NCBI GenBank assembly: GCA_009746045.1
Contig: RPFO01000213.1
Location: 10,691,853 to 10,755,852, forward strand
Origin: Mesostigma viride
Lineage: Eukaryota > Streptophyta > Mesostigmatophyceae > Mesostigmatales > Mesostigmataceae
Reading direction: 5' to 3'
Length of the DNA stretch: 64,000 nt
Below the pieces are notes generated by a model. The model made no database searches, had not been told where the DNA came from, and saw only the letters and a list, made by a program, of their open reading frames with translations. The position numbers and the translations under genes were made by a program. Positions 20,486 through 47,798 of this stretch are shown here, in pieces. Position 1 is the first letter of the stretch. Every line of letters begins with the position of its first letter.

Positions 20486-23400
20486 TTAGACAGCTTGCTG
20501 AGATGGGTCCATCAGAGACTGAAGAACCTTGTATTGCACTGCTGCCTTCTGCACTAGCTTGGTCAAAGCATCAGCAGGATTGTCAACCCCAGGGATATGC
20601 TCAATATTGGCCAAGGAGGACAACTCCTTAAGAAGGAGATAATCCAAGTCCCTACTTCTGGCCATCTGCCTGTGCACAAACTGCACCATCCCCATGGAGT
20701 CTGTTTTGAGAAGAGTGGTAACCTGAAGTGGCCAAGGAGTGTTAGAAGTCATCTGATGAAGCAACTCCTTCAGATAAAGGCTTGTGTGAATGCCTTCACA
20801 AATAGCCCTGCATTCTGCCACATCACTGCTGACAGCCACCCGTTTGTGCAGGGGACTAAACCAGCTCACCAAACTCCCCAGGCCTTCCTGTCTGAGCACA
20901 AAGAGCCCTGCAGCCCTGCCCCTGACCTTGGAGACCTGCCTGCTGTCCATTGAGCTATCCACATACAGCTCCATGCAAATGGGTTGTGATAAATCCACTG
21001 CAGACAACAGAATGCCAGATGAAGCCCTGACCTGATCAGCCACCTTGGCAGACCCTAGCTCCATCAGCATGTCATCAGGCAACCTGGCTATGACCATAAG
21101 GTCTGGCCTGGAAATGCCTGCCACCCAAGCAACCATGCCCCTCACCATGGGACACAGTGCCTGTGTGATGACTGGAGGAAGCTTGCTAATGAGGGTCTCT
21201 TGATAATCATTGCCCCCCACCAGCAGCATACGCCACTCCCCCCCCTTCTTCACCAGTGTGGCCTCCATGCCCACATTAACAGCAGAGGCTCATTCTCCAC
21301 CTGCCATTGCTCCCTACCCAGAGGAAACTTGGACTTAATGATGGAGACCAGCCACGACGTGGGAGCCAGCAGGTGCAGGTCGTCCCCGTGCAGCGAAGCA
21401 TACACTGGTAGGCCTTCCCATTGCCCCAGAAACAGACAGGGGTCTACAGGAGAGACCTTCAAGTTGCAATGCTCCTTCAGGAAACGGTTGAGAGTCTCCC
21501 TCCAGATTATTGGACTTGACCTCAGGCCCTCCAGGCCCTTGAGGATTTTAAGGAACTCAGTGTGAATGTCCCTTTTCCATACAGCAGGCACCCTGACATA
21601 GAAAGGCGTCTTGCCCTCCCACTTTTCCTGTGCCACATCTGCATCCCCCTCCAGAAATGCCCTCTTGAAGTCTACCACCACTGAGCCATAGTCCAAGCCC
21701 TTGTTGAGAAGGCCTAGAAATACACACAGCAGCAGCCTCCAAGTGTCATGCAGCATGCCAGGGGTATACAACTCCTCATCAGTGCACTCACCAGTACCCT
21801 TGAACTCATTCAGCACTGGCCTGATATGTGGTACCTTGACCCCGTCCACCTCCTTCATCTTGATGACAAACTTGAGCTTGAGTAGACGTCGTGCAGGAGG
21901 CAGGTCATTGACAGGTTCCACGCATTTCTTGGAGATCCAATCCCCCCCAGATTTAATCAGACCCAGTGTGACCTGGGGACACATAATGGGAGAGGACATG
22001 AGCTTCACCAGGCCTTGGTAGTTGATAGGGCTGTGTCCAGCAAGTGAGTGAGGACCAATGCCCAAACTGCTTGGATGACTAGCAGCTGGCAATATGAGGT
22101 CATCTACCAAGGGTTCCTGCCCCTGGCACACTTGCACACGCTTAACCGTCCTGGTTACTGCACGTGATAGGTGAGTGGTCCTGAAATTAATCAGTGGGAC
22201 CTGACCAGCCCCTTCCTTAGTCAGGAGAGAGGACGTGATCACTACCCCATCCTGGCATAGGAAATTCTGCCCCAGAAGAGCAGGTCCCTGATAGCCCTCC
22301 AAGACACAAAATGCAGTGTCCTGTCCAAGGATAGGAATAGATACCTCACCCAGTACCTTCACGTGTACCCCGCCACTGAAGTCAGACACAAACTGATAGC
22401 TGGGCTCAGTCATGCTGTACCCTGCTGCAGCTCTGGTCCCAATGATGGAAACCTGAGAATTAGTGTCTACCTCTAAGGCAGTGTCCAGCCCCAGATTGCC
22501 ATGCCACCTGAGCTTGGCTACCTTGGGCTGCTTCTTGGCCCTTTGCAGAGCCCCAATCAATCCAGCCAAACTTGTCCCCCTGGGCTTGGTTAGAGCCTTG
22601 GGCTTGACAGTTGACTCCCCAGCTGTTGACCTTGCAGCCTGTTCAACAGGTACCTCTGCAACCTGGCCAGGGCTGACAGATTCCCCTGCAACAGATGTGG
22701 TCGTTGCGTCAGTGATGTCACTTGGGACCTGAAAATCCTGCAGATCCTGTGAGCCTTGTGCCTGACTGCCCTCATTCATCAGGTTAGGCTTGACATATGA
22801 CCAACTCAGCCGGTGCACATGCTTTGGTTCGTCCTCCATGCTGACCAAGCATGCGTGGCTAGCTTCATCAACCTGGGTAACCACCCCAGGACTCCAGCTA
22901 CCACGTTTGCCATACAGGCTCGGTTCCTTCCAAGCTAATACCCTCTGACCCACTGTTGGCTCCAGCATCTTCCAACCCCGGTCCTTCTCCCTCAGCTTGG
23001 CAAAGGTGACAGGTGCAGCATGTTTCCAGCCCTCCAGCACATGTGGGGGGCACAGGCCATGATATAGGCCCATTGGGCTGACAGCAACTCCATCATAGTA
23101 GAAATTGACCCTGCTGTTCAGCTGCTGCTCCACGTTCCTCAACCATGCACTCCTGACAAGTGCAAGTGCAGACAAGGGTACCCAGTCTTCAGAGATGATC
23201 AATTTCTTGACCTCCTGGATTGCCCTCTCTATAGCACCCTGCTGCCAATGAGCCTCCCTAGGTGTAACCAGCAACTCAGGAAGGGTGGGATCACCCTTGA
23301 GATGCTGAAACTGCATGTCCACCTGGATCCTTGTGGTAGGAAACTTGGCTCTTACATTCTGCAGGGCAGCCAGCAAGTACCTGTTCTTCATAGAAGGTAA

Positions 23401-23964
23401 ATGCTATAGCACCTTGTACTTTGTGTACCTGTCCACGCACACCAACAGTTGCATGCCCCTGATGTGTTGGATATCACACTGCAGATCACCAATGCTCTGA
23501 GGTAGAGCTTTGGCATGTGATTTCCTGGGCTTGTTGGAGGACAACTGGCACTTACACCGTGAGGCAGCTTGCTGACACGCCTTGAGAAGGGGTGCCCTGC
23601 CCATACGGAAGGCAAAGTTGTTTGACAGAGAAGTGGCATGCCCAAACATGTTGTGGATTCGGGCACCCAACTCCTGGTACACGGAGGAAGCAGTCCCTGG
23701 CACAGTCAGGACTGTGCTGTCAGGTTGTCCAGCATCACCATGCTGACTTCCATCCTGTTCTGACTCAGAGCTTGAGTCACCCTGCTCATGCCCAACACCT
23801 GGACCGCCAGCAGGGACCACATGCACACCACCAGAGGCCTTCACACCCCTCTGTGGTTGTACATTGGTTTCTCTCATAATGAGAGGTCCACCCTCGTGCC
23901 CAGCACGAGGATGCATGGGGTCAGACATTCTTACAGCTGCACCAGCTGTCAAGGACGTCTTCAT
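20486..23964 (-). pseudogene. pol: CopB pol: INT, retropepsin-like, RT, RNase H
   Basis: One reading frame from 23964 to about 21270, broken by a TAG at 23404-23406, then a frameshift near 21270 into the frame ending at 20486. INT: zinc-finger His pair near MFGH, first Asp in CDIQHIRG, second in VDMQFQHL, Glu in GAIERAIQ, and a C-terminal domain (RVNFYYDGVAVSP, EPSLYGKRGSW). Then the retropepsin-like domain with DTNSQVSII (22453-22467) and LLGQNFL. RT has VVDFKRAFLEGD and HGDD (21379-21390). RNase H has YVDSSMDSR, AECRAICEG, TDSMGMVQF and NPADALTK. The protease lying between INT and RT is visible within the single ORF 23391-21250, so the order is not an artefact of rearrangement. Confidence 0.9.
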
Positions 23965-24105
23965 AGGAACCTGTACCTCTCCAGGTGACCTGGGGCCATC
24001 CTGAACCTGGAGATCACCCTCTTGTTGCCCAGATATAAAATCTGCATTGGAGCACCTGGCCCCCCCCTTGGGTGAATTCAGGTGTGTAGGGGTTGCCTCA
24101 GACAG

Positions 24106-24698
24106 TCATTGCTCCTTGTTGTCTTCTTGTTGACTGCCCTTTGAAGGCTGGCCTGCCTGGGACTTGTTGTTGTTTTTGTTGTTGTTATTCTTGTTGCTGC
24201 CCTGGCCCTGGGTCTTCTTGAAGCTGGGACACTCCTTCTTGATGTGCCCCCACCCCTTGCACAGGTAGCACTGGATCTTTGACTTGCCCTGGCCTCCTCC
24301 CCCGTTGTCAGGCGCGTTACCCTGCCTGGGCTTGCCACCCACCCTCCTGAACACCGACTTGGCATGTGATTGCCCGTCAGGGTCGGGTGAATGGTTGGCC
24401 TTCCGCTTGTTGTGGTTGCCCCCACGCCTTCCTTGGCTTCTGTCAGCCTCAGACGCCTTGGAGCCCCCCTGGGCACGCCCACCTGCGTGGGTAGCCTTCA
24501 CAGCTGGCACTCCACCCTCAAACAGCTCCTCTGCCTCGAGTGCTTGTTTGATTATGACCTTGTAGGCCTTGAGGGTAGAGTGTGGGGCACACATGACCTT
24601 TAAAGAGCCACGTGTAGCCTTGTCCAGCCCAGAAACCTTAAGCCAGTTTGTCAGGGCTATGTTGTCAGCAACATTGAAGCCATGAGCCCTGCCCTCCT
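24106..24698 (-). pseudogene. gag: CopB gag, C-terminal part with zinc knuckle
   Basis: The nucleocapsid part carries a CX2CX4HX4C knuckle (CYLCKGWGHIKKEC) and a Lys/Asn-rich tail. It ends in TGA (24106-24108) followed by CTG; the INT frame continues in phase beyond this stop. At the upstream end the frame is cut by the CopC LTR at 24699 and resumes at 33166, restoring a continuous phase across the duplication CTCCT. Confidence 0.85.
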
Positions 24699-25156
24699 AG
24701 TTGGATGGAGACTAGCGACGACGAACAACTGCTGAAGCTGAAAGCGAATGATGATTGTATTAGCAATAATACAATGAGAGAGCAATGGAAGCTGAGGGCT
24801 CAGAATGGAACGTCTGGGCAAACTCGGGTGCTGCGGCACTCCCCAGTGCTACGCCTATATGCCTATGGCGGTGCTACCTGCAGCACCGACCAGTGGACAA
24901 CTGTACACTGCAATGCCATGCGACCACGTCACTAGCAACCAGCTAAGACTCGGCCCGTCAGGCCCGGCTACACCGGACCTGGCGGGTCGAGCTAGCACCT
25001 AGGAACAGTCTGGCACTAACCGCACATCGGTCCACATGACACCTCAGTACCGTACACCCTGCCGTACTGTACTGAGGTGTCCCGCTCAGCCGCGGTAGGC
25101 AATACGCGGCGCGCAGGCCGGAAATCCGTGTGTCAGCCTAAGCATCTCATCTAACT
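24699..25156 (-). repeat. CopC 3' LTR
   Basis: 458 bp. On the minus strand it begins AGTTAGATG after a purine-rich GGAAAACATAATGGG and ends CATCCAACT, an inverted repeat of the start with one mismatch. Copy at 32705-33161. Confidence 0.88.
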
Positions 25157-26216
25157 CCCATTATGTTTTCCTTTCAGGTTGAAGGCTAGCGACTTCAAGC
25201 CTGACCCTGCCCAGCTAGGAGACTGACTCCAAGCTGACTGAGGTGCTGAGCAACTGACACCCATACTGCAACATCTGGACTGAAAAAGATGGGCCCCAGA
25301 ACTCGTGCAATACTTGTGATGGCATCACGTTTAGCTCAACATGCCCGGGGAGTTCCTCCTCCTCGCGAGCTCACAAGGGAGATAGCTATGCCTGTCTGCC
25401 TATCCAGGGAGTGCATCACCAGCCAAGAGAGCCATTGTAAAAATGCCAAGGTAACCGTTTAAGAGGTTCCATGTTGTTCCATCATCATCGCCCACTCAGA
25501 GAAAAATACCCAGCCAGGCTGGGTCAACTGAGCTCAGGTTACCTGCAACCTGAGGAGTGACAGTGGACAGGTTTATTGCACCCTGCACTGTCCATGTTGT
25601 ACCTGCACAACATGTGAGGACCAGCCACCCCTGCCCTGCACAGAGGGGGCTGAAGTCCGAGTGACAGGTGACAGGACTATGACATCCTGGACCTGGCCAC
25701 ATTGCACCTGCACAACGTGTGAGACCAGCCACCCCTGCCCTGCACATGGGTGACTGAAGTCCTGGTGACAGGTGACAGGAATATTTCATCCTGCACCTGT
25801 GCTGAGCACGTTGTACTAGACAACATGACAGCACCCATGCCTTACTGCCACTGAACAGTAAGGCCAGGTGGCCCAGGATATCCACAGTGAACTGGGGTCC
25901 TGGGTAACCACCTGTCAAGGGAGCTTTGACCCTCCACTTGAATGGGGGCACCTGAGCCACTGAGCTCAAGGCCAATCCACCAAGGCATACGCCCTAGGGA
26001 AAAAGGTGTGAGATACATCCCATGCCCACCTATGAAGGTGTGCATAACGAAATTCCATGGTGTTGAAAAAATCAAAACAGATTTTATTGGGCATAGGGCA
26101 CGCAGATGTATGAAAACAGACTCCAACCAACCCCCTTGCTGGAAGCCACAACCTACCCCTTGGACCTGCCCAAGGGGTACTGGGTGACCTAGGCGGCCCT
26201 GGTGAACAGGACCCTG
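25157..26216 (-). other. CopC 3' noncoding region with tandem duplication
   Basis: No ORF of note. A 105 bp unit is repeated in tandem at 25601-25705 and 25706-25809 (shared words ACCAGCCACCCCTGCCCTGC and GTGACAGGTGACAGGA). I find no T-arm-like hairpin here, unlike the other copies. Confidence 0.6.
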
Positions 26217-28006
26217 CTAGGCGTCCCCCCTATGGGGCAGGGTTGCCTGCTTGCCATAGGGGTTCATCAAGTGGTACAACAGCTGATATTGTTCAGCTGC
26301 CTGCTGAGGCACTTTAGTGAGTGCATCAGCAGCGTTGTGTTTGTCCTCCACGTGACGGGTGGACTCCCAGTAGGTGGACTCCTGTTTCAGGACCACCCAG
26401 TCAAGATCAGTGTGCACAGCATAGGGGTTAGCAAGGAAACTGAGGACTGACTGACTGTCAGTGAGCAAGTGTGCCACCACCCCAGCATTGCTGCCTGCTT
26501 GCATCTGCAACCAAACCAGCACATGATTCAAGTACCTGGCATGAAGCACTGCTGACACCACTGCCCTGCACTCAGCAGCATTGCTGCTGACAGCCTTGCG
26601 TCTATGCAACCGGCTGTACCATGAAATGAGAGACAAGGGTGCATCATCATTCTGCACAAAATACAAGCCTGACTCCCTTGCCTGCAACTTGGTAATCTGC
26701 CTGGACTCCATGGAACTATCCATCATAGCTTGGATGTGAATGGTTTTGTGGAGATCCAAGGAGTGCAAGATAAGGGGAGGGCCTTCCTGGAGAGTTTTGG
26801 TGATGGCTTTGTGACCTACTTGCATCAAGACATCATCATCAACTCTGCTAACCACAGCCAGGTGAGGTGCACACGTTGAGCACAACCACCCCAGCTTGCC
26901 TCTAATGGTAGGACAGGCTCCAGGTTTGATTTTTGTTTGCAAAACCTCCAAGCAGCTGTGCATGTAATCATTGGGAGAGTAGAGTGCACACACCCACTGG
27001 TTTTGATGCTGCTGGAGTTGTAACATTGTGCCACAAAATTTTATGGCAGTGGTGCCCAGCTCTACTTGCTTGCCAATCTCAAAATGCTGTGACACTTGTT
27101 GAATAAAATCATCCACAGCACGCCTTGGCCCAGCAATCAGCTGATCATCCCCATGCCACACAAAGGTGAGAATGCCATGAGGGTGTGGGACCACAAAGAA
27201 GCAAGGGTCTATGTCATCATATCTAGCCCCTAGCTTTTCAAACACAGCCTGAGCTGACATCCTGAAAATGCGAGGAGCTGATTGCAGCCCTTCAACACCT
27301 ATGTTAGCTTTCAGGTACTGCTGAGGGATGTGTTTTGCCCAAACTCTGGGAGTGGAGACTACATACACCTGACCATGCCACACTTGTTGTGCTATCTCAG
27401 GTGAGCCTTTCAGGAAAGCCCTTTTAATGTCTGTAGCCTTACATACATAGTCATCCCCATCATTGAGATGACCCACAAAGACAGACAGCAAGATTTTTAG
27501 GGATGTTTGCTGAATGCCTGGCGTGTACAACTCTGCCTCTGTCAGATCAGTGGTGCCCTTGAACTCTGTCACACAAGGTCTAGCATGAAAATGACTGACC
27601 CATCTGCTGCTGGCTTATGTTTACACACAAACTTCAGGCGCAAGTGCTTGCACCCTGCAGGCTTTTTGTCAATAGGTGTGACAGGTGGAGTATGAGAAGG
27701 ACTAAGAGGATCTGGCACTACCCATTCTTCCCTGGCCTTGTTAAAGGCCTCCACCCATTTTAGGAATCCTATGTGTGTGCGACAGTCTTGCTCTATCTGT
27801 TCATAAGAAAGAGGAGACATTTTAGCCACATCATGCTTGCCCAATCCAAATGAGTTGGGATGAAGTTTTTGGTTGTGAACCAAGTCTGCCACACAGGGTT
27901 CTTGCCCTGGGGCATACTTGGGTGTAGCAAATTTTACAGAAGCAATGTTGGTGTTAAGAAGTTTTTCAAGAGAAATTTTGAAATGATTCAGATCAACACC
28001 ACCCAT
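26217..28006 (-). pseudogene. pol: CopC RT and RNase H
   Basis: Two open segments, 28006-27569 and 27572-26217, joined by a one-base shift where the first ends (VIFMLDLV) and the second begins (MTEFKGTTD). RT motifs: ATDIKRAFLKG, the LQSAPRIF box, DPCFFV and WHGDDQLI (HGDD at 27144-27155). RNase H: MDSSMESR, AECRAVVS, TDSQSVLSF and HNAADALTK. The C-terminal segment is intact for 451 codons. The similarity to CopA/CopB is moderate throughout, which makes the shared HGDD and the shared domain order informative. Confidence 0.87.
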
Positions 28007-28686
28007 GTCCTGGATGGATAGTCTATCACTGGAGATATGACACCAGGGTAACAGAGAAAAGGATCCCCCAACAAAGCATTCCCTTTATAACCTTCCAATA
28101 CCTGAAAAGGAGTGGGGATACCGAGTATAGTCAACATGACCTGACCTAATACCTTGAGGGATGACTGCCCTGAGAAATCAGCCACATGGTGCCAGGGTGA
28201 AGGTTCCAAAGGCAAATGGGGCACAGCCAGGGCACTGATAATGCTGACCTGGGCTTGTGTGTCCACTGCAACCATAAATGGGCTATTGTCATTCTGCCCA
28301 ACCTTCCCCACCTTAGCTGATCCTGCAGCAGTTTGAGCTTTGGCTCTATGAGCTGCTTGTAAAATGCGAACAGCGTCTGCTAGGCTGCGTTTGGAAGGTG
28401 CAGCTAGTGGCTGAGCTATGTTCACACTTGAAGAGGTGATAGGTTGCTGATCACCTGTTTTGCCAATGTGACCCTCTGCTGCAGGGGGCCAAGCCTGCAG
28501 TGACTGCCTGCAATCATCAAGGGTGACCTGGGTGTCACAGTGGGTGTGGCTCTCACACTCACCAGTGGGTGTTCCAAACAACCACTCACTGGGCAACGCT
28601 GGGATGCCAGGCAACTGTACAGGGCTGTCGGCCAACAGCTCTTCCTCCTCTGCCACGTCTGACACAGTTGGAAAATACAATTTCAT
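27988..28686 (-). CDS. CopC retropepsin-like domain ORF
   Basis: 232 codons. The second half is the aspartic-protease-like domain: DTQAQVSII (28249-28263), VADFSGQSSLKVLGQV, then EGYKGNALLGDPFLC, the equivalent of the ILG..FL flap-distal motif. The active-site triplet D-T-G is replaced by D-T-Q. The ORF starts with an ATG overlapping the stop of the gag-INT ORF (ATGA), and its 3' end overlaps the next segment. In CopA and CopB the same domain is fused in frame after INT, so the separate ORF may reflect a frameshift, natural or mutational. Confidence 0.7.
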   Translation of the reverse strand: MKLYFPTVSDVAEEEELLADSPVQLPGIPALPSEWLFGTPTGECESHTHCDTQVTLDDCRQSLQAWPPAAEGHIGKTGDQQPITSSSVNIAQPLAAPSKRSLADAVRILQAAHRAKAQTAAGSAKVGKVGQNDNSPFMVAVDTQAQVSIISALAVPHLPLEPSPWHHVADFSGQSSLKVLGQVMLTILGIPTPFQVLEGYKGNALLGDPFLCYPGVISPVIDYPSRTWVVLI

Positions 28687-29978
28687 CCTGTGAGGTGAAC
28701 ACCTGTGAATTTTCCCGTGTCATTGTGTTTAACTAACACTGTCCTGCCAGTGGTGTTAAACTTTAGGATGGTGGCTGGCCCATGCCAGGTACCCACCTTG
28801 CCTAGTCCCGACTCCTTGTAGAATAGGACCTGATCCCCTTCTCTGAAGGTGGGACGTGGATGCTTTGCATCCTTGACAGCTAACCTGCTAGCTGTCTGTG
28901 CTCGCTGTGCGTTGTATAGGGCTAGTACCTCAGGTGGATAAATGCCTGCATGCAATCCATCTGGTGTAATGACCACCCCTTGTGGGGTTTTCATGAGTGG
29001 CCTCCTGTTGAGGACTTGGCACAACCTGGTGGACCACAGAGCTCTGTCAGCATATGACCCACTGTCAGCCAGCAGATTGCCATCTTCTTTGGCTACAAGG
29101 GTTTTAATGGACCTGATGGCCCTTTCAATAATGCCTTGCCTCTCATGATCTTCTAGCCCAGCCAGATCAATAGCCTCACACCCTGGTTCATTGGCAAGAC
29201 ACGTGAACTGCTGATCCAGTAACAATGCCTCCACAGGGTAGTACCTGGCCTGAGCAATCAAGAGAGCCCTGAGCAACTGTGTCTTGTCCATTCCAGGTAA
29301 TGGTTCAATGGTTGTGTACCTTGACCATGCATCTTTAAGTGCCAAGTAAGATTGTCCTTTGATATGAAAGACATCTCCTACCACCCTGCCCTTGCTCTTA
29401 GGTGGGGTAGCTACATGCCACTTAGGGGGTTTGGGTGCATTGAACTGACAATGCTGGCAGTGGGATCTGACCACCTGGCATGCACGTCTGAGTGCTGCCC
29501 CCCCTATTGCTGCTGCCACCACCTCTGCACTCACTTCATGCCCATAAAGGAAATGCAACTGCAAAGCAAGCTCCTGAAAACTGATATGAGCATCCTCTGC
29601 TGGGGACACTCTGCACACCTTGGGAACCATAGATGTGAAGGTTGGTTTAGAGACATAATCTTCTGAAACCAGCTGTAGCACCTTTCCAGAACTGCTCACT
29701 GCTCTGACAGTGGGGCATGCAGATGAAAGAGGTGAAGCAGGCACACTCAAGCCAGCATGAGAGGGAGACTCACACTTCTTGCCGTAAGGAGGCCGCTTGC
29801 AGTCCTTGGGGTCACCGTGGGGCGGCCCGTGGCACTTGTGGCACAGGACGTCCAAATGCCCCAGCTCGTCCACGTTCTTGCGGCAGGTGGGCCGCAGGTG
29901 GTACTTCATGCCACAGCGGGTGCACCGCTGAGAAGACTTGTCCTCCTTGTCCTGCTTCTTGTTGTTGTTGTTGTTGTT

Positions 29979-30044
<66 letters not shown>

Positions 30045-30341
30045 GCTGGAGCTGCCCCCCTTGGAGGGAGACTGCCCCTTACCCTTGCCCTTGCCCCAGC
30101 CCCTGCCCTTGCCCTTGCCCTTGCCCTTGCCCTTGCCCTTAAACATTTGTCCCAGCAGGGACTTGACTTCTGCCATAGTGACAGGTCTCTTGCTCCTGTC
30201 TTCCCTCTCCCTATCCTCCTCCTCCCTCTCTTCCCCCCTGACCCTCTTTACAGAGGTGCCCATGGCCCCCTGGCTAAGGGGAGCCAAGGCCAGCTTGATA
30301 TAATCCAATGCCTCCTTCATGTCCTCCCAGTACTTTGCCAT
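28683..30341 (-). CDS. CopC gag C-terminus and integrase
   Basis: 552 codons. Order: coiled/charged segment, a (GK)n run, about 30 consecutive Asn (29960-30044), two CCHC-like knuckles (CTRCGMKYHLRPTC and CHKCHGPPHGDPKDC), an INT HHCC finger (HFLYGH ... CQHC), then the INT core with first Asp in GDVFHIKG, second in LLLDQQFTC and Glu in GIIERAIRS. The C-terminal INT domain is GDQVLFYKESGLGKVGTWHG. INT inserts cDNA into the genome. No protease lies between knuckles and INT. It is continuous with gag upstream through a one-base frameshift near 30340. Confidence 0.85.
29960..30044 (-). repeat. (AAC)n microsatellite encoding poly-Asn
   Basis: About 28 nearly perfect GTT triplets on the plus strand, in the Asn frame of CopC gag. 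Adjacent at about 30080-30145 is a TTGCCC hexamer array coding Gly-Lys repeats. Both are low-complexity slippage tracts within a coding region. Confidence 0.9.
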
Positions 30342-31079
30342 TCCTGTGCAAGCATAGCGTAGGTGTTTTTGTCAAGTTTGAGTTTCTCAAGGAAGAACGC
30401 AGCAAGAACTTGTGATCTAGCTGCTGGACATCAGGACGTGCTTTGATGGCTAGCTCATATTTCTTTGTCTCAGCCACATAGTCCACTGATGTGACCCTGT
30501 ATTCCTCTACCCACCTGAATGCCCCATATATGTCCACAGATGAGGGGGTGGAGAGGAGGTCAGTTAGCTCCTTCATGAAAGCCTCCCAAACTGCCCTAGC
30601 CTGCGTGTCCTGCCACTTGGGATACCTACGCTGGAAGACAAGAATGAGATTCTGAATCTGAGAGGAGGACTGATGGTAAAATCCCCCTGCATGAGAGATC
30701 CAAACCAATTCTTGACATTCAGTTCCTCCCTAGCCAGCTGCAGAGAGAGAAGTGCATGATTCCCCTGCTCCCTAGTATACCCCTCAGGCAGCCCCCTGAC
30801 ATTAATCCTATCCACAGGACGGTTTTCATTGTAAGTGGGCAACCTAGAGGGGGATGCAGGGGGAGAGGGAGAAGATGGTGTTGCTGCTGCAGCATTCACA
30901 GGAGAGACATGCTGAGAGGGAAGTGCTACTTGAGTGAGCTGAGCAGGATGGGCAAACATGGGCTGTGTAGGAGGGTTAGACAACATAGGGGTGGGCTGGG
31001 TGGGGGTGTGAGTGTGTGTCACTTCCCGCCTCCTGCTGCGGGCCTCCTCCCAATCATGGAAGGTGGGAGAGAGGGACAC
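30274..31079 (-). pseudogene. gag: CopC gag, N-terminal part
   Basis: Two overlapping segments, 31079-30573 and 30708-30274, with a frameshift near 30690. The first has a Pro/Ser/Thr-rich head and a helical start of the capsid-like region (LLSLQLAREELNVKNWFG). The second continues the helical capsid-like part (WQDTQARAVWEAFMKELTDLL, FRWVEEYRVTSVDY). The layout resembles CopA gag, but similarity is weak. The product would coat the particle. Confidence 0.6.
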
Positions 31080-31131
31080 TTCATCGTCAGTAGGGTTAGT
31101 AAGATCATGATGCAGCCAGGTAGGCAGCCAC

Positions 31132-31782: not shown

Positions 31783-32058
31783 GGGCGTGTTGGGGCGTCT
31801 GCCGCCCCGCGCTCCGTCGCAGGCGGCATCGCAGCCGCCTCACGCCTATCCGGGCCCCAGCCAACTGGCGTGACTTGGGGCCACGGCCCAACGGAGTCAG
31901 CGGATCTCCTGTCTGGCGACCACGCGCAGCGCCTCTCTCTGGCGCTGCCTGGACGCCCACTGATCAACAGTGCCGGGTTGTGCCTCGGCCGATTGGCGAA
32001 ACAGTACAGCCAAACTGCCACCTGAACCAGGGGAACTGCATCCTCAGACGCCCCTCGA

Positions 32059-32664: not shown

Positions 32665-32704
32665 ATTTTTTTTTTGCGAAAAAAATAAAGAACTTTTCAG
32701 TCCA

Positions 32705-33161
32705 AGTTGGATGGAGACTAGGGACGACGAACAACTGCTGAAGCTGAAGCGAATGATGATTGTATTACAATAATACAATGAGAGAGCAATGGAAGCTGAG
32801 GGCTCAGAATGGAACGTCTGGGCAAACTCGGGTGCTGCGGCACTCCCCAGTGCTACGCCTATATGCCTATGGCGGTGCTACCTGCAGCACCGCCAGTGGA
32901 CAACTGTACACTGCAATGCCATGCGACCACGTCACTAGCAACCAGCTAAGACTCGGCCCGTCAGGCCCGGCTACACCGGACCTGGCGGGTCGATCTAGCA
33001 CCTAGGAACAGTCTGGCACTAACTGCACGTCAGTCCACCTGACGCCTCAGTACCGTACGCCCTGCCGTACAGTACTGAGGTGTCCCGCTCAGCCGCGGTA
33101 GGCAATACGCGGCGCGCAGGCCGGAAATCCGTGTGTCAGCCTAAGCATCTCATCTAACCGT
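32705..33161 (-). repeat. CopC 5' LTR
   Basis: About 455 bp, matching 24699-25156 with about ten substitutions and indels. On the minus strand the shared sequence begins at GTTAGATG; three extra bases (ACG) precede it if the duplication is CTCCT. Confidence 0.85.
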
Positions 33162-33166
33162 CTCCT

Positions 33167-33688
33167 CAACCATTTTACAATTGTTGAGGAAGTTTTGGAT
33201 AAGGTCTCCTTTCACCTCCCACCCCTGGTATTTATCCTGCCAATGGATCCCCACTTTCTTCCGTTGATCCTCTAGCAGCTCCCTTAGTTCTGCCACGTAG
33301 AGTGCCCAGGCCTTGTTGGCCTTCTTGCACTCTCTAGTGAGGTCCTTTATCTGATCTGTACACTTGCCAAAAGTCTGGCTGCCTATCCAGATCTGATAAT
33401 AGTTTGTACCATGCACCGTACAAGCTTGGAAACCCCTCTAGCCCCTCCACAAACTCCTCAGCCTGCTTTGGCTTTGAGTCTGACGTGACAGGTTGCAGTT
33501 GATTAACAATAAGTAGCCCCTGGGTGGTGAGATCATATCCAGAGACAGCATGTGTATTATTATTAATTAATAGGTACATTGGTAATCTCGCCGGTAACCC
33601 CCACGTCATCTACGTGGGCGGTTCCACTACCTGCACCTCCATTATTACCACTGGCTGGAGCACCCCTGCTACGGCGCCCGTCCGCCAT
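33167..33688 (-). pseudogene. gag: CopB gag, N-terminal part
   Basis: It starts MADGRRSRGAPASGN at 33688. An extra T in ATTAATTAATAATAAT (about 33565) shifts the frame into three stops; the frame then continues as NNNNTHAVSGYD. A second shift lies at about 33340-33420. The downstream segment (ECKKANKAWALYVAELRELLED, QNFLNNCKMVEE) is helical and capsid-like. Its last codons continue in phase into 24698 on the other side of CopC. Confidence 0.7.
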
Positions 33689-35347: not shown

Positions 35348-38300
35348 CTACCCAGCCCACCGGGACACATCCCACCTCAGAGCAAGGCGTTGGTCTCCGT
35401 AGCACCCCACCATGGGGCCCATGAGCCCACGGAGCAGAGGGTACTGCTGCACGGCCTTCTCCTCAAGCTTGGTGAGAGCATCTGCAGGGTTATCCAGGCC
35501 AGCCACATGTTCAATGTCAGCTAAGCAGGACATTTCCTTGAGCAACAGATAATCAAGGTCCCTGCTTCTGGCCAGCTGTCTGTGCACGAACTGCACCATG
35601 CCCATGCTGTCAGTTTTCACCAGTGTGTGCATCTGCAACCGACAGGAAGCTACCTTACATAGCTGGTAGAAAAGCTCCCTCAAGTAAAGGGCTGTGTGCA
35701 GCCCCTCACAGATTGCCCTGCACTCAGCAATGTCACTGCTGGGGGTTACCCTATTCTGCAACCGACTGTACCAGCAGACCAGAGAGGACTGTTCCTGCAC
35801 CAGGGTGATTAATGCTGCTGCCCGCCCCCTGACCTCTGTGACCTTCCTACTATCCATAGAACTGTCCACATAGAGAACCATGTCAAAGGGCCTGTACAAA
35901 TCCAAAGGACCCAAGATGAGAGGTGGAGACAATGATCCTCACAGATTGCATCACACTCTCAGCACCCACCTCGACCAGCTGGAAATCTGTCAACCGACTC
36001 AAGACCAGCAGGTCAGGCGCACAAATGCTAGCCAACCATGCCAACATACCGCGTATGGAAGCACACCTTGGCTGGGTAATGGGCTCCCGCAGGGCATCAA
36101 GGATCTGCTGAGGATAATTGTTACCACCCTCCAGCCTGATGACCCAAGAACCCTGTTGTTTAATCAGTGTCGCCTGCATCCCACAAAACACCATGGGCTC
36201 ATCCTCGACCATGTGCTGGATCTTACCCAGCTCAAACCGTTTCTGGATCCTGGACAAAGTCTTCTCAATCCAGGAGGGAGGACCCATGAGATGCATATCA
36301 TCACCATGTAGGGAGGCAAATACAGGCAGGCCACCATCGCTAGCCTGGAACAAGCAAGGATCAACTGGGGAAACAGTCAAGCCACAGACAGTTTTGAGAA
36401 ACTTCTCTAGGCTCTTCCTCCAGATGATGGGACTGGACCTAAGACCCTCAACACCCTTGAGAATCCTTAGGTACCTTGCCTTGATTTCTGCCCTCCACAC
36501 AGCAGGCACACTGACAAAGAAAGGTGGTATCGTTCGCCATGTCTCCCTATAGCCTCTTCCTGGTCACCCTTGAGAAAAGCCCTCTTGAAATCTATCAAAG
36601 CAGAGCCATAGGCAATGCCTTTGACCAGGAAGGATAAGAAAACACACAACAACATTCTCCACGTGTCATGCAGCATCCCTGGTGTATAGAGCTCCTCATC
36701 TGCTAACTGTCCAGTGCCATGGTACTCGGTTACAACTGGTCTGACATGTGGCACCTCGACACAATCTACCTGTTTGAGCTTGAGGACAAACATCAATCTG
36801 AGCAGCTGGCCGGTGATCCTCTGGGAGGACATCTACAGGCTCTGCACAGTTGGCAATCATCCACTCATGCCCAGAAGCAATGAAGCCAAGAGTCCATGCC
36901 TTAGCCATCTTGGGGCTTTGCATCATCTCCACTAGCTTGTGCCAAGGTACAGGACTCGTTCCAGGGATCTGGTACCTCTGCACCCCCAACTGGCGTGGGT
37001 CAAACGTAGTTGGGATGATCAGCAGGTCCTGAGCAATGGGCTCCTTAGAATCAGGCCCCTCCACTGCAACACCCTTCACCGCCCTTACAGCCACACTAAG
37101 TCCCTGGGAGTAGCGATATCTCTGGAGGGGTAAACTACCCTGCCCTTCTAGTGCCAATTCCTCAGAGGTTATCGTCACCCCCGGCTGGCATAAGAAATTC
37201 TGCCCCAGTATGGCTGGACCCTCATAGCCCTCTACCACACAGAACACAGTGGGCACCCCCAGAATAGGCACACTCACCTCCCCCAGAACTTTCATGGACA
37301 CATTCCCCGAGAAATCAGACACGGCTGGGCAACCGGCTACAGACATCCGCAACCCTGCAGCATCCTCAGCCCTCAGAATGGACACCTGCGAGTTGGTATC
37401 CACCTCTTATGTTGCTGCCCAGCATGACCCCCACCCCGTGAGCTTAGATACCTTGGGATCACGCTTGCCGCTCATCAGTGCCCGGATGACGTCCGCCATG
37501 AGGAGCCCCTTGGGCTTTGGTCCAGCCCTGGCCCCCACTGGCCTTGTGACAGTTGCTGCAGCAGATTCCAGCTCACCCTCGTCCATCCAGGACAGACCAT
37601 CATCCAAGCATGGAGGGTTAGCATCTACTGCCTGGCTCTCCTCCTGAGCCTCAACCTCCAAGGGAGGCTCAGGGCCGTCTACAGGCCAGATTGCACATGG
37701 CCTCTTCTCTCGGATGTGAGCCCAGGACAACCTGTACACGCGCCTAGGATCCTTGTCCAAGGCTACCAGACAAGAATGGTTGGCCTCATCCAACTGGGTT
37801 ACCAGCCCATCCTGCCACTTGCCACGCTTGCCTGGTATTGATGGCTCCTTCCACATCCTGACCCCCATTCCCACATGGGGCCTCAGCATTTTCCAGCCCT
37901 TGTCCTTGCGCCTCAGCCGAGCAAACACTCTATCTGCCTTTCTCAGGCAGGCACCCACTACCTCTGTGGTAAACAACCCAAACTGCGCTGCTAAGGGAGA
38001 GACGGCCACACCATCATAGTAATAGTTTACCCTGTGGTTAAGCTGTTCCTCAATCCCCTTGCACCAGGCTGCCTTTTCCAAAGCAGATGCTACCACTGGC
38101 ACAGTCTTTGCTGCTAGCACCACTGTCTTTACCTCACGGATAGATCTCTCTACAGCCCCCTGCTGCCCATGACTCTCTCTAGGGACCACTACCAGCTTAC
38201 ACGGAAGCTGATCAGCATGCTTTCTCAAGCAGTCAAACTGCAAGTCAGCTTGCACCAAGGTGTACACCCCAAAGCATGGCAACAAAGACTGGAGACCCAA

Positions 38301-38643
38301 CAACAAGTGATGCTCATCCATGCCAGGCAGGATGGTCAACAGCCTATACCGGCTGAACCTATCCACCCCCACCAACAGATACAAACCACGAATGTGCTGT
38401 ATATCTACTTGGATATCTCCCCGCCCTCTAGCAGGCTCTCTAGCGTGGGACCGTGGTGGGTGAATCTGATTCTCCTGACAGACACAGTTCTCAGCAGCTG
38501 CAGTGCAGGCCTCCAACAGAGGCTGCTTACCTAGCTTCCAAGCAAACATTTCTGCCTGTTTAGAGTGCCCAAATACATGGTGTAGAGTATGCCCAGCGGC
38601 TGCATAGCTCAACCCCCTAGCAGTCTCACTGCATAAGGAGGAA
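35348..38643 (-). pseudogene. pol: CopA2 pol: INT, retropepsin-like, RT, RNase H
   Basis: Frame from 38643 downwards with a TAA at 37404-37406 (relatives read TTA), then shifts near 36815, 36540 and 35935. INT: HHCC finger (LHHVFGHS ... CTAAAENCVC), Asp in VDIQHIRG, Asp in QADLQFDC, Glu in GAVERSIRE, then the C-terminal domain (RMWKEPSIPGKRGKW). Retropepsin-like domain: DTNSQVSIL (37386-37400), VSDFSGNVSMKVLGEV, ILGQNFL. RT: LIDFKRAFLKGD and HGDD at 36297-36308. RNase H: YVDSSMDSR, AECRAICEG, TDSMGMVQF, NPADALTK. Before the LTR element inserted, this frame was continuous with gag: the phases match after removing the insertion and one CTAGG. Confidence 0.9.
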
Positions 38644-38648
38644 CTAGG

Positions 38649-39276
38649 TGTCAAAAATGTCATGCTGTGACCATGGGAGGTTGTTGATATTACATTAATA
38701 ATGATGACCTCATTTACGACTTTGTCATGATGGAAATATTTTGTCAACCACCATGGCTGAAAGGTGCCATTTTCTAGAACAGTGGTGGTCAGAGAAGATG
38801 TCTGGCGTGTAGCCCAGCCACCACCTATATGGCTGGTCGGCAGGACCACAACATAATTAACTTAACATGACAGCTAGGCAACACTTAACCAGTGCTATCT
38901 AGATGCTGCCTGCTGGCAAATCATGGTTGTACCATGGCAGACAGAATTAGGTACGCCTAGCTGACGGTCCAGGTGCCACGAATTGAATTATTGGCGCCTG
39001 TCCTATATGGGCCATGCGCCACATGACACGACATGGATTGTACTACAGTGCCGTATAGTGACCAGGCACATATATATGAAAAGACTCATAACTTTCTACC
39101 TAGTGGCACTAGAGCTCAGATCAAGGTGATTCTAGTGGCAAAGTTGTAGCCAAACATGAGCTCTACGCAGTCATACTGGCGTTGTAGGTTGTTCTGACTT
39201 AACTACGGACTACCCGAACTTTATCTAGATTAGTAAGTGCTAGACTTGTCAGGCATATTGGGGCATATTCCTGACA
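38649..39276 (-). repeat. LARD-like element, LTR 1
   Basis: 628 bp, TGTCAAAAATG ... TATTCCTGACA. It preserves the uninterrupted target sites of both insertions found in LTR 2: AGGCACATATATATG near 39064 and GCAGTCATACTGG near 39170. A few small indels separate it from LTR 2. Confidence 0.9.
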
Positions 39277-40753: not shown

Positions 40754-41176
40754 TGTCAAAAATGTCATGCTGTGACCATGGGAGGTTGTTGATATTACAT
40801 TAATAATGATGACCTCATTTACGACTTTGTCATGATGGAAATATTTTGTCAACCACCATGGCTGAAAGGTGCCATTTTCTAGAACAGTGGTGGTCAGAGA
40901 AGATGTCTGGCGTGTAGCCCAGCCACCACCTATATGGCTGGTCGGCAGGACCACAACATAATTAACTTAACACATTGACAGCTAGGCAACACTTAACCAG
41001 TGCTAGATGCTGCCTGCTGGCAAATCATGGTTGTACCATGGCAGACAGAATTAGGTACGCCTAGCTGACGGTCCAGGTGCCACGAATTGAATTATTGGCG
41101 CCTGTCCTATATGGGCCATGCGCCACATGACACGACATGGATTGTACTACAGTGCCGTATAGTGACCAGGCACATA

Positions 41177-41837
41177 TTCTGATCAGACACTCCGCAAAGG
41201 TGAAAACCTTTGCGTTCAGTGCCGGGCCGCGGAAAACGCGGAAAACGCGATCTACAAATGAATCCGACCTGAATCGAACTGGGGACCTCTCGCACCAAAT
41301 TTTGCTGACAATAGGACGGACGTCTCCGGTTACCATGGCATCGCCAACTTACACCTACAGTCATCCGCAAAATTTCTCCTGTCCGGGGAGTGATGCAAGC
41401 CTTTCGGATTTGGTACTAGATAAATCACTCGAGATCTGTGTGTAGGAGTACTACACACGTGTCTGCACGCGAGACTTGTTCAGTCTCGCACCGTGAGACG
41501 GGCTGAACACGGCTGAATCCTTGTTTAGAAGGGGGCGTAGCCGGTACTATCGAAATCAGCCAAGCGTATATTCTGATCAGACACTCCGCAAAGGTGAAAA
41601 CCTTTGCGTTCAGTGCCGGGCCGCGGAAAACGCGGAAAACGCGATCTACAAATGAATCCGACCTGAATCGAACTGGGGACCTCTCGCACCAAATTTTGCT
41701 GACAATAGGACGGACGTCTCCGGTTACCATGGCATCGCCAACTTACACCTACAGTCATCCGCAAAATTTCTCCTGTCCGGGGAGTGATGCAAGCCTTTCG
41801 GATTTGGTACTAGATAAATCACTCGAGATCTGTGTGT
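41177..41837. mobile_element. TRIM-like or dimeric tRNA-related insertion
   Basis: 661 bp flanked by the 9 bp duplication AGGCACATA (41168-41176 and 41838-41846); LTR 1 shows the empty site. It consists of two 267 bp direct repeats (41177-41443 and 41571-41837) that I read as identical, around a 127 bp middle. Each repeat holds, on the minus strand, GGTAACCGGAGACG and about 45 bases later AGTTCGATTCAGG, loosely like pol III A and B boxes. Ends are not TG..CA. Either a miniature LTR element or a dimeric SINE would fit. Confidence 0.65.
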
Positions 41838-43170
41838 AGGCACATATATATGAAAAGACTCATAACTTTCTACCTAGAGCTCAGATCAAGGTGATTCTAG
41901 TGGCAAAGTTGTAGCCAAACATGAGCTCTACGCAGTCACACTAGGAAGTCAGGATTGAGAAAACTGAGAAACCCTGAGAAAAATTGAGAAAAACCTGAGA
42001 AGAGCCGAGAAAAACTGAGAAGTAACTGAGAAGAGCTGAGAAGTAACTGAGAAGAGCTGAGAAAAACTGAGAATCACCTGAGAAAAGGGGGTGAGAAAAA
42101 TTGAGAAGAGCTGAGAAGAAATTGAGAATTTGAAAATCTGAGAAAAGTGAGACTTCACTCGGACTGAGAAAAGTGAGAAATCACAAGAACTGAGAAAAAT
42201 GAAAAACCACGAGAGAGTGAAAAACAGATTATGATAGCAGCAAGCACTGCCAACATAATTTCAGCAAGGCAATCAAGGCAACAGGTTTTTTTTATTAAAA
42301 CATAATTTATTTACGTATGAAAGCCGTCCTTTTGTGCATGTATTTCTTGACATGGCCCTGCCATAAACTCGTCTAATTCTCTAGCTTGCTGGAAATTTTT
42401 CAAAGAAGATGGCTACAACTATGTTGCCATGGCTGTCTTTCACAAGGCCGCTTGCATAGCTTGATGCCCCAAATTGAAGATGTCGGTGCCGTTTGTATGC
42501 GCCACAAACTGAAAAGAATGCAAAACAAAAGCAGAACACAGGAATGGAAAATCAGCACCATACATAAGAAAGCATTTTATGTGCAGTCACAGAAGCCACA
42601 ACTTGAAAAAATACCGGCACGACATCCACCTAGGTCTGACTACATGGTGGCGTTAAACGGCCAGACCAGCACTGTGGTGCACATCACAAGATGAACATGC
42701 ATTTGAAATCCACATCTCAAAACATACCTTAATGAGTCGCTTGACGCATTGCCGGTGTCCTGTACTTCTGCAAAAAAAAGAATCCGTTGTGCAACCAGAA
42801 CATGCATGAAATAGCATAAGGCTAGGTGACTGTACTAGATTTATAAAGCCGTCAATAACCCATTGATTCATACTGACCATTCAGCGGCGGTTCTGAAATT
42901 GTAACCATTGATCATTTAATGAATACTATACAACACTGTTATGGCTTTATGACACATCTGTCATTGCCTTTCATCAAATACGATGACAGCTGGTTAACAA
43001 AGCTGGTCGCTTGCTAGGGCATCATGCTGGCCGCTCCCATTTCATTCTATTGGTGCTTGCAAGAATCCAAGCAACCCGCGACACAATATGCAAGAGAAAA
43101 AAAAGATATCAGATCCTTGACATAGACCTCACCATTCTACAAGGAAGAGCTCACCAGCACCTAACCGTCC

Positions 43171-43908
43171 ATGCAGCAAATGTGTAGAACACGATTTATG
43201 ACCCAATACTCACTTTTATGGCAAAGCAGCCCATACACATGAATCACACCATGCACCAGATGTCACACGAGCAAGCCACAACATGGTCGTCGGATCAGAA
43301 AGCAACAAACGTGAAAACGATAGCGGCCCGAATCTGAGATTCCGCGGCACACAGAAAATAAGAAGGCTCAGAAGCTACCAGCAAGGGATCGAACATAGGA
43401 CCTTAGGCATGATTTCATGCAGCAAATGTGTAGAACACGATTTATGACCCAACACTCACTCTTATGGCAAAGCAGCCCATACACATGAATCACACCATGC
43501 ACCAGATGTCACACGAGCAAGCCACGACATTGTCGTCGGATCAGAAAGCAATAAACGTGAAAACGATAGCGGCCCAAATCTGAGGTTCCGCGGAACACAG
43601 AAAATAAGAAAGCTCAGAAGCTACCAGCAAGGGATCGAACATAGGACCTTAGGCATGATTTCATGCAGCGAATGTGTAGAACACGATTCATGACCCAACA
43701 CTCACTCTTATGGCAGAGCAACCCATACACATGAACAACACCATGCACCAGATGTCACACGAGCAAGCCACGACATTGTCGTCGGATCAGAAAGCAATAA
43801 ACGTGAAAACGATAGCGGCCCAAATCTGAGATTCCGCGGAACACAGAAAATAAGAAAGCTCAGAAGCTACCAGCAAGGGATCGAACATAGGACCTTTGGC
43901 ATGATTTC
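43171..43908. repeat. Three tandem 246 bp repeats inside the CACTA element
   Basis: Units start at 43171, 43417 and 43663 (ATGCAGC.AATGTGTAGAAC). Each contains AGGGATCGAACATAGGACC, whose complement GTTCGATCCCT resembles a pol III B box. A partial inverted copy lies at about 44740-44850. Confidence 0.85.
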
Positions 43909-43989
43909 GCGGCTGTGTGAGTCTCCAGATCCGAAGGCATCTCACTTAATTAACGTTTCGAAACAGCCAAACTGCGAAAAACCTCTTAC

Positions 43990-45180
43990 CGGAGGGAGTC
44001 GCCAATATCAAGGAGACAACCAGCGCAGGCCAGAAATCGGGAGAATCCGGACCATGGTAGCTCGAGCCTGCCGTTATCTTGTCCGCGTTTTCGAGTCGTG
44101 CAGGATTATGAATATGAATGGAGATGGAAATGTGTAGGCTTGTGCATTGAAATTATGGCTGGCTGACGTGTAGAGCGACGAGATGACCTAGACGGTGGGG
44201 CCGGAAACAGCTTGCTTGATTGTGTTTCTCGTGGGGAACGAGTCCAACGACTACTTTCTCTGGGCGGCAAACTGCGGCAAATTGAACGCAAGCCTCATCT
44301 TGAAATCTTGACCGTCGAAATGTAACGATCCGACGACTTCTGCAGTATGCCGCAATATTTTTCTGTTGCGGAAGAGCCGTTGGGCCGGTTCCCGACGCGG
44401 GCGACCAGTGGTTTGCATTAAGTTAACTTACCTGAAGTTCTCCAACAGAAATGACCCAAGCCGCATGATGGCACTCATCGACGGCCTCAGTTCGGCCCGA
44501 TTTTGGCGGCACCCAATTTGACCCCAACGGCACCTACCGACAAATACATACGTTTCATGCGCACCACGACCCCTTTGAGCTCTGCTATGGCGGTGGTGCT
44601 GTGGGGCCCGCATCAGACTGGGGGCCCTTATCTGCTATGGCGGTGCTGCCGTTGAGCCCGCATCAGACTGCAGGCCCTTTATGCAGGCGGGCCCTTAATG
44701 CATGTTACTTATTTATTCTTGTGCATACAAATATGAAGCAATGAAGTCCTATGTTCGATTCCTTGCTGGTAGCTTCTAGGCTTTCTTACTTTCTGTGCTC
44801 CGCGGAATCTCAGATTTGGGCAGCTAGCGTTTTCACGTTTGTTGCTTTCTGACGACAATGAAGCAATGAAGTCGTGTCCTCCGGATTTTTGCATTTGGAC
44901 CGTGTGCAGTTCTTGGAAACATGCATGGCATATGGCTAATGTAATGACTGACTAGCTAGACCGTTTCAGTGGTTTTTCATTTGCGGGTATTTCCTCGTAA
45001 ATGGTGGGAAAGCGATCGCAGAAATCGTTCTCACCACTAGACACTCCCGGCCAGTGAAGCTCGAAAAACACGCCCTGATCAAGCAAGCTGTTTCCGGCCC
45101 CACTGTACAGGTCATCTTACAGTCGCTCTTTGCGTAAGCCAGCCATAATTTCAAGGAACAAGGCTACACATTTGCATACG
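43990..45180. repeat. Inverted and direct segments shared with 7012-7435
   Basis: 43995-44225 is the inverse of about 7180-7435, while 44877-45180 matches 7012-7310 directly. The CACTA interior therefore contains two overlapping portions of one sequence in opposite orientation, which could form a long hairpin. Confidence 0.65.
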
Positions 45181-46100
45181 CTTTTCTTGGTTATCGGTGT
45201 TCCTCTGTTTGAATGCAGGGGGGATCGCTGTGCCGACACAACGCGTTCAACGTGCTGGGCATCAAATGAGGGATCTGGGCGACCACCAGTGCGCGACTAG
45301 TGTCGCCACTTCTTTCCGGACCTGAGGGCGAGGCTGCAGCCGGAGCTGCAGACGTACTTTCAGGGCTTAGCGCAGCTGCCAGGCTGCGTTGCGTCGAGGA
45401 GCGTTTGCTCGTCATATATTGCGCAATAGCTTCGGAAAAGTATATCAGCGTGTGCGTCTTAGAAAGACGAAGTGATTGTGATATTCACAGCCGAATTGGG
45501 TGCCCAAACGTGAAAGTTATGAGCTCCGTTGTCAGCCATGGCTACCTCGTGGCTCGTGGCTTGGATGGTACATTGGCTATATTGTATGATAACCCTATAT
45601 TTTTCACATTCCATCTCTACCATGCTCACCGCTTGCAATGTGATGCGTTTGTATCAAGTGTGTGAATCTCCGCGTTCTCAGTCCTTGTGGTTTTCTCTGC
45701 TTTCTCAGTTCTTGCGGTTTTCTCAGTTGTGGCCTTGGACTTGTTTGAGAAAATTGAGAATGATTCTCAATTCTTCTCAGCACTTCTCAGGCCATTTCTC
45801 AGGTTTCGTGAAAATTTTCTCAAAAACTGAGACCAATCTGAGAATTTTCTCAGTTCTTCTCAATCGTCCTGAGAAAAACTGAGATTTTTCTCAGTTCTGC
45901 TCAATTTGCTGAGAAAATTCTCAGAAAAACGCCCAAATTGAGAAAAACTGAGAAAAAAGTGAGAAATTTCTCAACCCCCTCTTCCTAGTGCATACTGGCG
46001 TTGTAGGTTGTTCTGACTTAACTACGGACTACCCGAACTTTATCTAGATTAGTAAGTGCTAGACTTGTCAGGCATATTGGGGCATATTCCTGACACTAGG

Positions 46101-47798
46101 ACCTGGCTGTGTGCGCGGGACCGCACGACCCACCTCCTGCTCCTTGGAATCAGGGACCTCCACAGCTTGACTCCCAGAGCCAACAGTGGTTCCCTCGGCG
46201 CCAGCAGGACTTTCCAGCTGAGCTGCTTGACTCCCAGAGCCAACACTCACTGAAGACCCTGTACCTGCCACAGGCCCAGGGAATTGCACTGCTGCAGCAG
46301 CGACATTGCAATCATGTGGAAGAACAAGCCCATCAGTATTCCCAACCCCCTGCTGCTGAACAGGAGGTGCACCCCTATCATCCATATTTACAAGTGCCAC
46401 CTGCCCCACCTGGGGTGGCTGACTATTTACATGGGGCACTGCACTAAGTCGCGGCTTCCTGGACTGACCACCTGCTCCTGCAGCATTGGCCAGATCAGGG
46501 CAATCACGGCGCCAGTGACCTGTCTTACCACAGCCAAAGCACTTATCCTCCTTCCCAGCCTGGGCCTTCCTCTGACTCCCCTGGTTCTGGTTGCCTGGCT
46601 TATTCTGGTTGCCTTGGCCCTGGCTCTTGCCTTGCCCTTGGCTACCTCCCCCCTGTTGTCCCCCTTGGTGACCACCAGCCTGCTTCTGGCCCTTGTTCTG
46701 AGCCCCTTGCTGCTGGCCCTTGCCACCTTGGTTCCCACCCCCCCTGCGCCTCCCAGCCCTCTGACGCCTGCTAGGACGAGGACCTCCCTGGGCTGCCTGC
46801 CCTGGGGCATCCCCCTGCACCTGGCTAGCGGAGGCTGAAGCACCTGAGGTCTGAATGGTTTTACAAGCAGGGGCAGATGGGCGAATGCTCAAGACTACCC
46901 TCTCTAAGGCAGCCAGCGACCCATCTGTCTGATCTGCAAACAGCCTAGCTGCATTGCGACCATCCACACTGAGCCCCATACGATCCATGAAATAATCCAC
47001 CACAGCCCTGATGGGGATCTTGAAGCCCTGGCTAGACCCCTTCTCCACAATGCGAAGGAGCCTCTGCCATTCCTCAGCTATGGTGCCCCTGATCTCAAAC
47101 GTATCATAGGCCAGCTTGTAGTGATTAGTGAGGTTGAGGACTTTGTCAGAAAACTCTTGACGCAGGCCCAGGAGAAACTGCTCCCAAGAGAGCTTATCCT
47201 TCACTGCAGACCTGGCTTTGTCCCTCACACGCTCAGAAGAATCCCTATTCACTGAGGAAGCATGGAACACCTGGACGAGATTGACAGTGGGATCTACGGA
47301 GTAGGTGACTAGCTCCATATCCTCTAACCACTTGTCTAACTCCTCCTGACTCACGGGTGGCTTCAGAGGCTTCTGGCCGTTCATCACGGCTACAGCACTC
47401 ATGTGGGGTCTAGTTCCTGGCAACGCGCGAGCATCACTACCCACAGCAGAAGCCCCAGCACCCCCAGCCATAGCGTCTACAGAAACATGAGGAGGAACGA
47501 CTGCCTCGGCCACACGGGCCGTCTTACCACCGTTGGCCTGCAGCCCCTCCCCTTGGCCTTCTCCAGTCAGCTCAATGCTGTCCGTTGGCCCTTCTGCGCG
47601 CTCCTTCCCCCGAGCTTCCTCCTTTCGCTTCCGGTACCGCGTCCTTTGCCCCGCCACGCCCTCCATCGTGGGAATCGCCTCCCCTTCTGGCTGGCCGACT
47701 GCTGGCACTGACGCTCCCGCCTCTCCACCCTCCATCGCAACCGCCTTGCTCCCGCCGCCGACCCCGTTCTTGCCCTTAAGCATTATGGGCACAGACAC
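46101..47798 (-). pseudogene. gag: CopA2 gag
   Basis: Start Met at 47798 (MSVPIMLKGKNG). A disordered, charged head of about 140 residues precedes a conserved capsid-like part (PHMSAVAVMNGQKPLKPPVS, KWLEDMEL, YSVDPTVNLVQVFHASS, DRMGLSVDGRNAARLF), a basic Gly/Gln/Lys-rich stretch, a CCHC knuckle (CFGCGKTGHWRRDC) and about 110 residues of linker. The same blocks are in CopA3 gag. Where CopA3 has TGA after the knuckle, this copy reads CGA-CTT, so gag and pol are fused in phase. The ORF is cut by the LARD-like element. Confidence 0.88.

Follow-up and report, generated by a model that had tools for sequence, protein, structure and literature searches.

Domain order in pol is a main criterion by which long terminal repeat (LTR) elements are classified. 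Ty1/copia elements (Pseudoviridae) are arranged GAG-PROT-INT-RT-RH, with protease (PROT or PR), integrase (INT), reverse transcriptase (RT) and RNase H (RH), and Ty3/gypsy elements and retroviruses follow the order PR-RT-RH-INT. A precedent for an altered order is described for the Gmr1 lineage of Ty3/gypsy, where INT occupies the copia position (PMC2774666). A large survey discarded elements of unexpected domain order as likely mispredictions (PMC6317226), so that a clade with the order GAG-INT-PR-RT-RH may be lost at this step. Here, we analysed a stretch of 64,000 nt from Mesostigma viride (contig RPFO01000213.1, positions 10,691,853–10,755,852; hereafter the window), which contains several LTR retrotransposons of a single clade according to a tblastn map, among them the copies CopA, CopB and CopC.

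The clade shares with Ty1/copia an RT of the RVT_2 type, an INT upstream of RT, an RNase H that looks copia-like by eye and, in CopA, two LTRs. It differs in that a retropepsin-like domain lies between INT and RT and a protease was not found between gag and INT in the pieces scanned, and in that these pieces lack the Pfam domains Pol_BBD, gag_pre-integrs and SH3_retrovirus, all three of which occur in three copia control elements of the same genome. With Ty3/gypsy and retroviruses the clade has in common that a protease-like domain precedes RT; however, its INT precedes this domain (in eight of nine copies) instead of lying downstream of RNase H, and its RT is RVT_2. Gmr1 represents an INT moved within a gypsy element, whereas here the protease-like domain stands after INT in a copia-type element. 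Among the titles listed by a limited literature search, none describes the order GAG-INT-PR-RT-RH, which does not establish novelty in print. We read the copies as a clade of the copia superfamily that encodes Gag with a CCHC zinc knuckle, INT, a retropepsin-like domain, RT and RNase H and that would use the readthrough and processing mechanism proposed below, and we assign this reading a probability of roughly 70%; as a clade it is supported within this genome. Its copies are distributed over the window as follows.

20486-24696 (-): CopB, main part (tblastn map)
20486..21289 (-): CopB, C-terminal part of RT and RNase H, identified by its likeness to the other copies, without a Pfam match
21250..23403 (-): CopB, single open reading frame (ORF) with INT core (D, E), INT C-terminal part, retropepsin-like domain and RT (RVT_2 E 1.3e-5)
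22210..22542 (-): CopB, retropepsin-like domain, motif VDTNSQVSII at 22441-22470 (profile matches)
23404..24105 (-): CopB, start of pol with low-complexity linker, INT HHCC motif and region of the first catalytic Asp (INT alignment; the INT profile matches integrases)
24106..24696 (-): CopB, C-terminal part of gag with CCHC knuckle (zf-CCHC), ending in an in-frame TGA (24106-24108) followed by CTG
33150..33437 (-): CopB, likely N-terminal continuation of gag beyond CopA (likeness to CopC gag)
24695-33158 (-): CopA, whole element (tblastn map, LTRs)
24695..25155 (-): CopA, 3' LTR, 97.2% identical to 32701-33158 over 461 columns
32701..33158 (-): CopA, 5' LTR, matching 24695-25155
26217..27614 (-): CopA, RT and RNase H (RVT_2 E 7.1e-7)
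28018..28320 (-): CopA, retropepsin-like domain, motif VDTQAQVSII at 28237-28266 (PF13975 E 0.1 in the ORF; profile matches)
28683..30371 (-): CopA, C-terminal part of gag (two CCHC-like patterns, by pattern only) and INT in one ORF (rve E 0.011)
35348..36832 (-): CopC, RT and RNase H in three frames (RVT_2 E 8.9e-4, RVT_3 E 0.0096)
37143..37406 (-): CopC, retropepsin-like domain, motif VDTNSQVSIL at 37374-37403 (profile matches)
37407..38612 (-): CopC, INT (rve E 0.018; tblastn map)
46068..47825 (-): CopC, gag with CCHC knuckle (zf-CCHC E 4.6e-5)
3..1832 (+): fourth copy (C family, left-edge copy), RT and RNase H, with the remainder left of the window in stretch L012
60015..62160 (+): C-family copy at 60 kb, gag with knuckle (zf-CCHC E 2.4e-6), TGA-CTA at 61004-61009, and INT
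13178..13966 (-): fragment of RT and RNase H of the same clade (tblastn map)

The order INT, retropepsin-like domain, RT is real and recurrent in this genome. It is read from the CopB ORF 21250-23403, in which the INT core with its second Asp and its Glu, the INT C-terminal part, the retropepsin-like domain and RVT_2 (residues 499-680) follow each other without interruption; the INT HHCC motif and the first catalytic Asp lie in the same frame immediately upstream, past an in-frame stop. The left-edge copy repeats the arrangement in L012, where a gag with knuckle is followed by a 741-aa ORF (L012:5550-7772) containing HHCC motif, INT core, INT C-terminal part, retropepsin-like domain and the start of RT. 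In CopA the three domains are scattered across several frames, and in CopC the retropepsin-like domain starts right behind an in-frame stop. A profile of the retropepsin-like domains of the three copies, run against the open frames of at least 25 aa in the window, recovered those of CopA, CopB and CopC and no others.

We determined the recurrence of the order in a sample of 264,000 bases, comprising the window and 20 further stretches around it. The census with the domain profile gave 11 rows; two of them, with domain E-values of 4500 and 4700, were treated as noise and left out. Each of the other nine domains is followed on its own strand by a copia-type RT/RNase H at a distance of at most 2 kb; over the same distance upstream, INT is present for eight of them and gag for five. 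The nine copies do not represent nine independent cases, as several are close (L025:7457 and L027:6960 are 99% identical); by domain identity they fall into about four groups, with 32–66% identity between groups. Pairwise identities of 51–68% over 77 aa among the domains of CopA, CopB and CopC, together with this repetition, argue that the order is more than chance. The original prediction had placed the protease-like domain of these three copies after the INT C-terminal part and before RT, with INT core, PR and RT of CopB in one ORF; coordinates and profiles bear out both statements and the overall order GAG-INT-PR-RT-RH. It had also judged a local rearrangement unlikely, and here the census agrees. 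The copies are nested and frame-broken, as one might find in a rearrangement, a chimera or an assembly artefact, yet diverged copies show the same order across 264 kb and on both strands, and INT, PR and RT share single ORFs in CopB and L012; we regard an origin of this kind as very improbable.

It is also conceivable that the clade follows the canonical order, with a diverged true protease residing in gag or in the linker between gag and INT and the domain between INT and RT being something else. Scans of gag and linker pieces gave neither a copy of the retropepsin-like domain nor a Pfam protease nor Pol_BBD between the knuckle and INT, in line with the earlier claim that nothing protease-like lies there; the Pfam scan of linkers covered the copies outside L025, L027, L028 and L031. 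Pfam gives nothing credible for gag outside the knuckle or for an extra ORF that precedes gag, leaving room for such a protease, and no single test places the homology of the domain between INT and RT above threshold. On the other hand, the linkers look low-complexity, and the pattern D-[ST]-G-[ASTC] occurs only twice in the five gag-to-INT spans scanned, once at 33762-33785 in a stop-broken frame outside the gag ORFs and once in the 60-kb copy, in a frame full of stops. Three copia ORFs from other parts of the genome (L009, L010 and L011) served as usual-order controls; they were chosen for long open frames and read from 150 scored out of 1981 RVT_2 candidates (439,911,974 bases, 2243 contigs). 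Each contains Pol_BBD, gag_pre-integrs, rve, SH3_retrovirus and RVT_2, and L009 additionally Retrotran_gag_2, so the Pfam scan finds the usual domains where they are present. Pol_BBD, which we take to be the copia protease barrel although its Pfam name says only beta-barrel domain, reaches E 2e-9 or better in the three controls and is absent from the clade pieces. A hidden canonical protease is improbable in our estimation, and copia elements of usual order coexist with the INT-PR-RT clade in the same genome.

The assignment of the flanking domains is as follows. An INT profile gave 95 PDB matches, of which the best 60 were all named integrase, Pol or integrase fusion (best E 1.7e-4); the rve matches of CopA and CopC are weak. 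The last Asp and the Glu of INT are 29 residues apart in CopA and CopB and 31 in CopC, compared with the usual spacing of 35. The RVT_2 matches of all three copies stay below the curated cut-off of 31.6 bits, and Pfam scans of the CopA, CopB and CopC pieces gave no RVT_1 match.

For the domain between INT and RT, 28 of the 43 profile matches are retropepsins, with a sub-threshold best E of 0.0036, and a reversed-profile control matched proteins unrelated to retropepsins. Pfam matches to protease families were obtained for six of the nine copies, again sub-threshold. Fold comparison of the domain models, which are of low confidence, leans to retropepsins, and the best matches by profile and fold are the retropepsins of HIV, ASPRV1 and Ddi1; a viral fold library gave mixed matches. 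Matches of single sequences to the PDB look like chance and were set aside. These lines agree, each below its threshold, and point to a domain akin to retropepsins, for which we use the term retropepsin-like.

The original prediction had called the domain retropepsin-like, and the fold matches lean towards retropepsins. It overlooked a departure at the active site: the Asp-Thr/Ser-Gly (D-T/S-G) catalytic motif is replaced by D-T-N in six and D-T-Q in three of the nine copies (D-T-N-S-Q in five, D-T-Q-A-Q in three, D-T-N-A-Q in one), unlike in HIV, ASPRV1 and Ddi1, which carry D-T/S-G. D, T, Q, V and S are invariant in all nine copies. The clade motif D-T-x-A/S-Q-V-S-I looks nearer to DTGAQVSxI of gypsy elements and retroviruses than to the DSGA type of copia. 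With Asn or Gln at the Gly position in all nine copies, the domain is described here as a putative protease. The same substitution, together with the weak match to curated protease models, favours a pseudoprotease, whose fold would be kept because it serves in assembling the particle or binds RT or INT, with the polyprotein processed by a host protease or not at all. A dead enzyme, however, need not keep Asp-Thr and the following Q-V-S invariant in nine of nine copies, and the pieces scanned yielded no other candidate for a protease. We consider a pseudoprotease quite possible, at somewhat below even odds.

Between CopA and CopB or CopC, the domain is 51–52% identical, compared with 31–35% for the RT palm, 35–39% for RNase H and 38–44% for the INT core (about 40 aa); between CopB and CopC its 68% identity is level with RT and RNase H (67–71%). 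The conservation of the domain between CopA and the other two is unusual, since a plant survey reports GAG and protease to be more variable than RT, RNase H and INT (PMC6317226). Instead of strong constraint, this identity may reflect exchange of the domain between subfamilies. Synonymous sites are near saturation, and the ratio of nonsynonymous to synonymous differences (pN/pS) was therefore given no weight. Retention of Asp-Thr and loss of Gly in nine copies, combined with conservation above that of RT between CopA and CopB or CopC, test how strict the aspartic-protease motif is, and the odd position with an altered active site makes the clade a good test case for element assembly and processing.

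The gag-pol junction was compared in seven copies. An in-frame TGA-CTN, after which pol continues in frame, is found in three of them, as TGA-CTT in the left-edge copy (L012), TGA-CTA in the 60-kb copy and TGA-CTG in CopB. CopC has CGA-CTT at this site, CopA has no stop at the junction, a copy with knuckle at contig position 10,804,737 still has the letters TGACTAGCTA, though in a different frame, and in the broken frames of a copy near 10,814,600 the site was not seen. UGA-CUA is a known readthrough context, and TGA-CTN at the end of gag suggests readthrough into pol, a prediction from sequence. The CopB knuckle match (E 0.0014, 19.0 bits) is slightly below the zf-CCHC cut-off of 20.8; those of CopC and the 60-kb copy are listed above, and the CopA knuckles have no zf-CCHC match in Pfam. 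We rejected a programmed frameshift from INT to PR as a clade feature: the CopA ORFs overlap by about 36 nt, but INT and PR share a frame in CopB, CopC and L012. The gag part of the CopA ORF 28683-30371 (-) contains a long poly-Asn run ahead of its zinc-knuckle patterns. The extra ORF upstream of gag is alike by eye in three C-family copies (47881-48576 (-), 58661-59584 (+) and L012:3702-4145); the first two gave no credible Pfam match.

In the mechanism that we propose, Gag of B- and C-type elements would stop at UGA-CUN and a minority of ribosomes would read through to give Gag-Pol. In the particle, the retropepsin-like domain may dimerise as retropepsins do and free Gag, INT and RT/RNase H, with the invariant Asp as the putative catalytic residue and Asn or Gln in place of the usual Gly. 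Its position before RT, which gypsy elements and retroviruses share, may also let the domain stay attached to RT. As to the origin of the order, INT may have entered between gag and PR, or PR may have been moved or replaced. A conserved protease-like domain before RT with INT in front bears on the origin of the copia and gypsy orders. A stronger and tentative proposal is that LTR retroelements have a third stable order of pol, with a D-T-Asn/Gln retropepsin and Gag-Pol made by UGA-CUN readthrough; in this view, the adjacency of PR and RT, with INT in front, suggests that INT joined this lineage at another point than in canonical copia and that the position of INT was fixed more than once. We think this proposal rather more apt to fail than to hold.

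A protein search with the CopB ORF alone gave no matches. An alignment of RT/RNase H found 10 proteins, six from EukProt, two from other sources (P0006, P0010) and two marked as the window's own, and an alignment of INT-PR found one, from EukProt; none of the proteins found spans INT-PR-RT. The EukProt relatives are named Mesostigma viride (P0001, P0003), Prorocentrum lima (P0002, P0004, P0005) and Lingulodinium polyedra (P0007, P0011). P0002 is 95–100% identical piecewise to the left-edge copy (285-1223) and P0011 96.5% identical to CopB INT (22885-23316); such near-identical matches under dinoflagellate names would mean contamination or horizontal transfer. Scans of viral contigs and prokaryote genomes gave no relative.

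Several copies are interrupted. CopA appears to be inserted within CopB gag, the N-terminal part of which would lie in the ORF 33150-33437 past CopA (20% identity to CopC gag over 81 aa, E 2.8e-7). About 38649-46095 separates CopC gag from CopC pol; this stretch has its own repeats (D4, D6, D8) and is apparently a nested insertion. In the 60-kb copy, the match stops at 62160, short of the retropepsin-like domain. A comparison of repeats in the window recognised no LTRs for CopB and CopC, and a search for the target-site duplication of CopA gave just a possible candidate of 5 bases, CTCCT, lying a few bases away from the ends of the LTRs.

Three further features lie in the window. The 977-aa ORF at 15969-18902 (-) matches Phage_integrase (tyrosine recombinase, E 5e-7) and is perhaps Crypton- or DIRS-like. 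The ORF at 1851-2720 (+) resembles by eye the restriction-like endonuclease end of a long interspersed nuclear element (LINE) and has no credible Pfam match. At 43170-43907, a 246-bp unit is repeated three times in tandem, the units being 94–100% alike.

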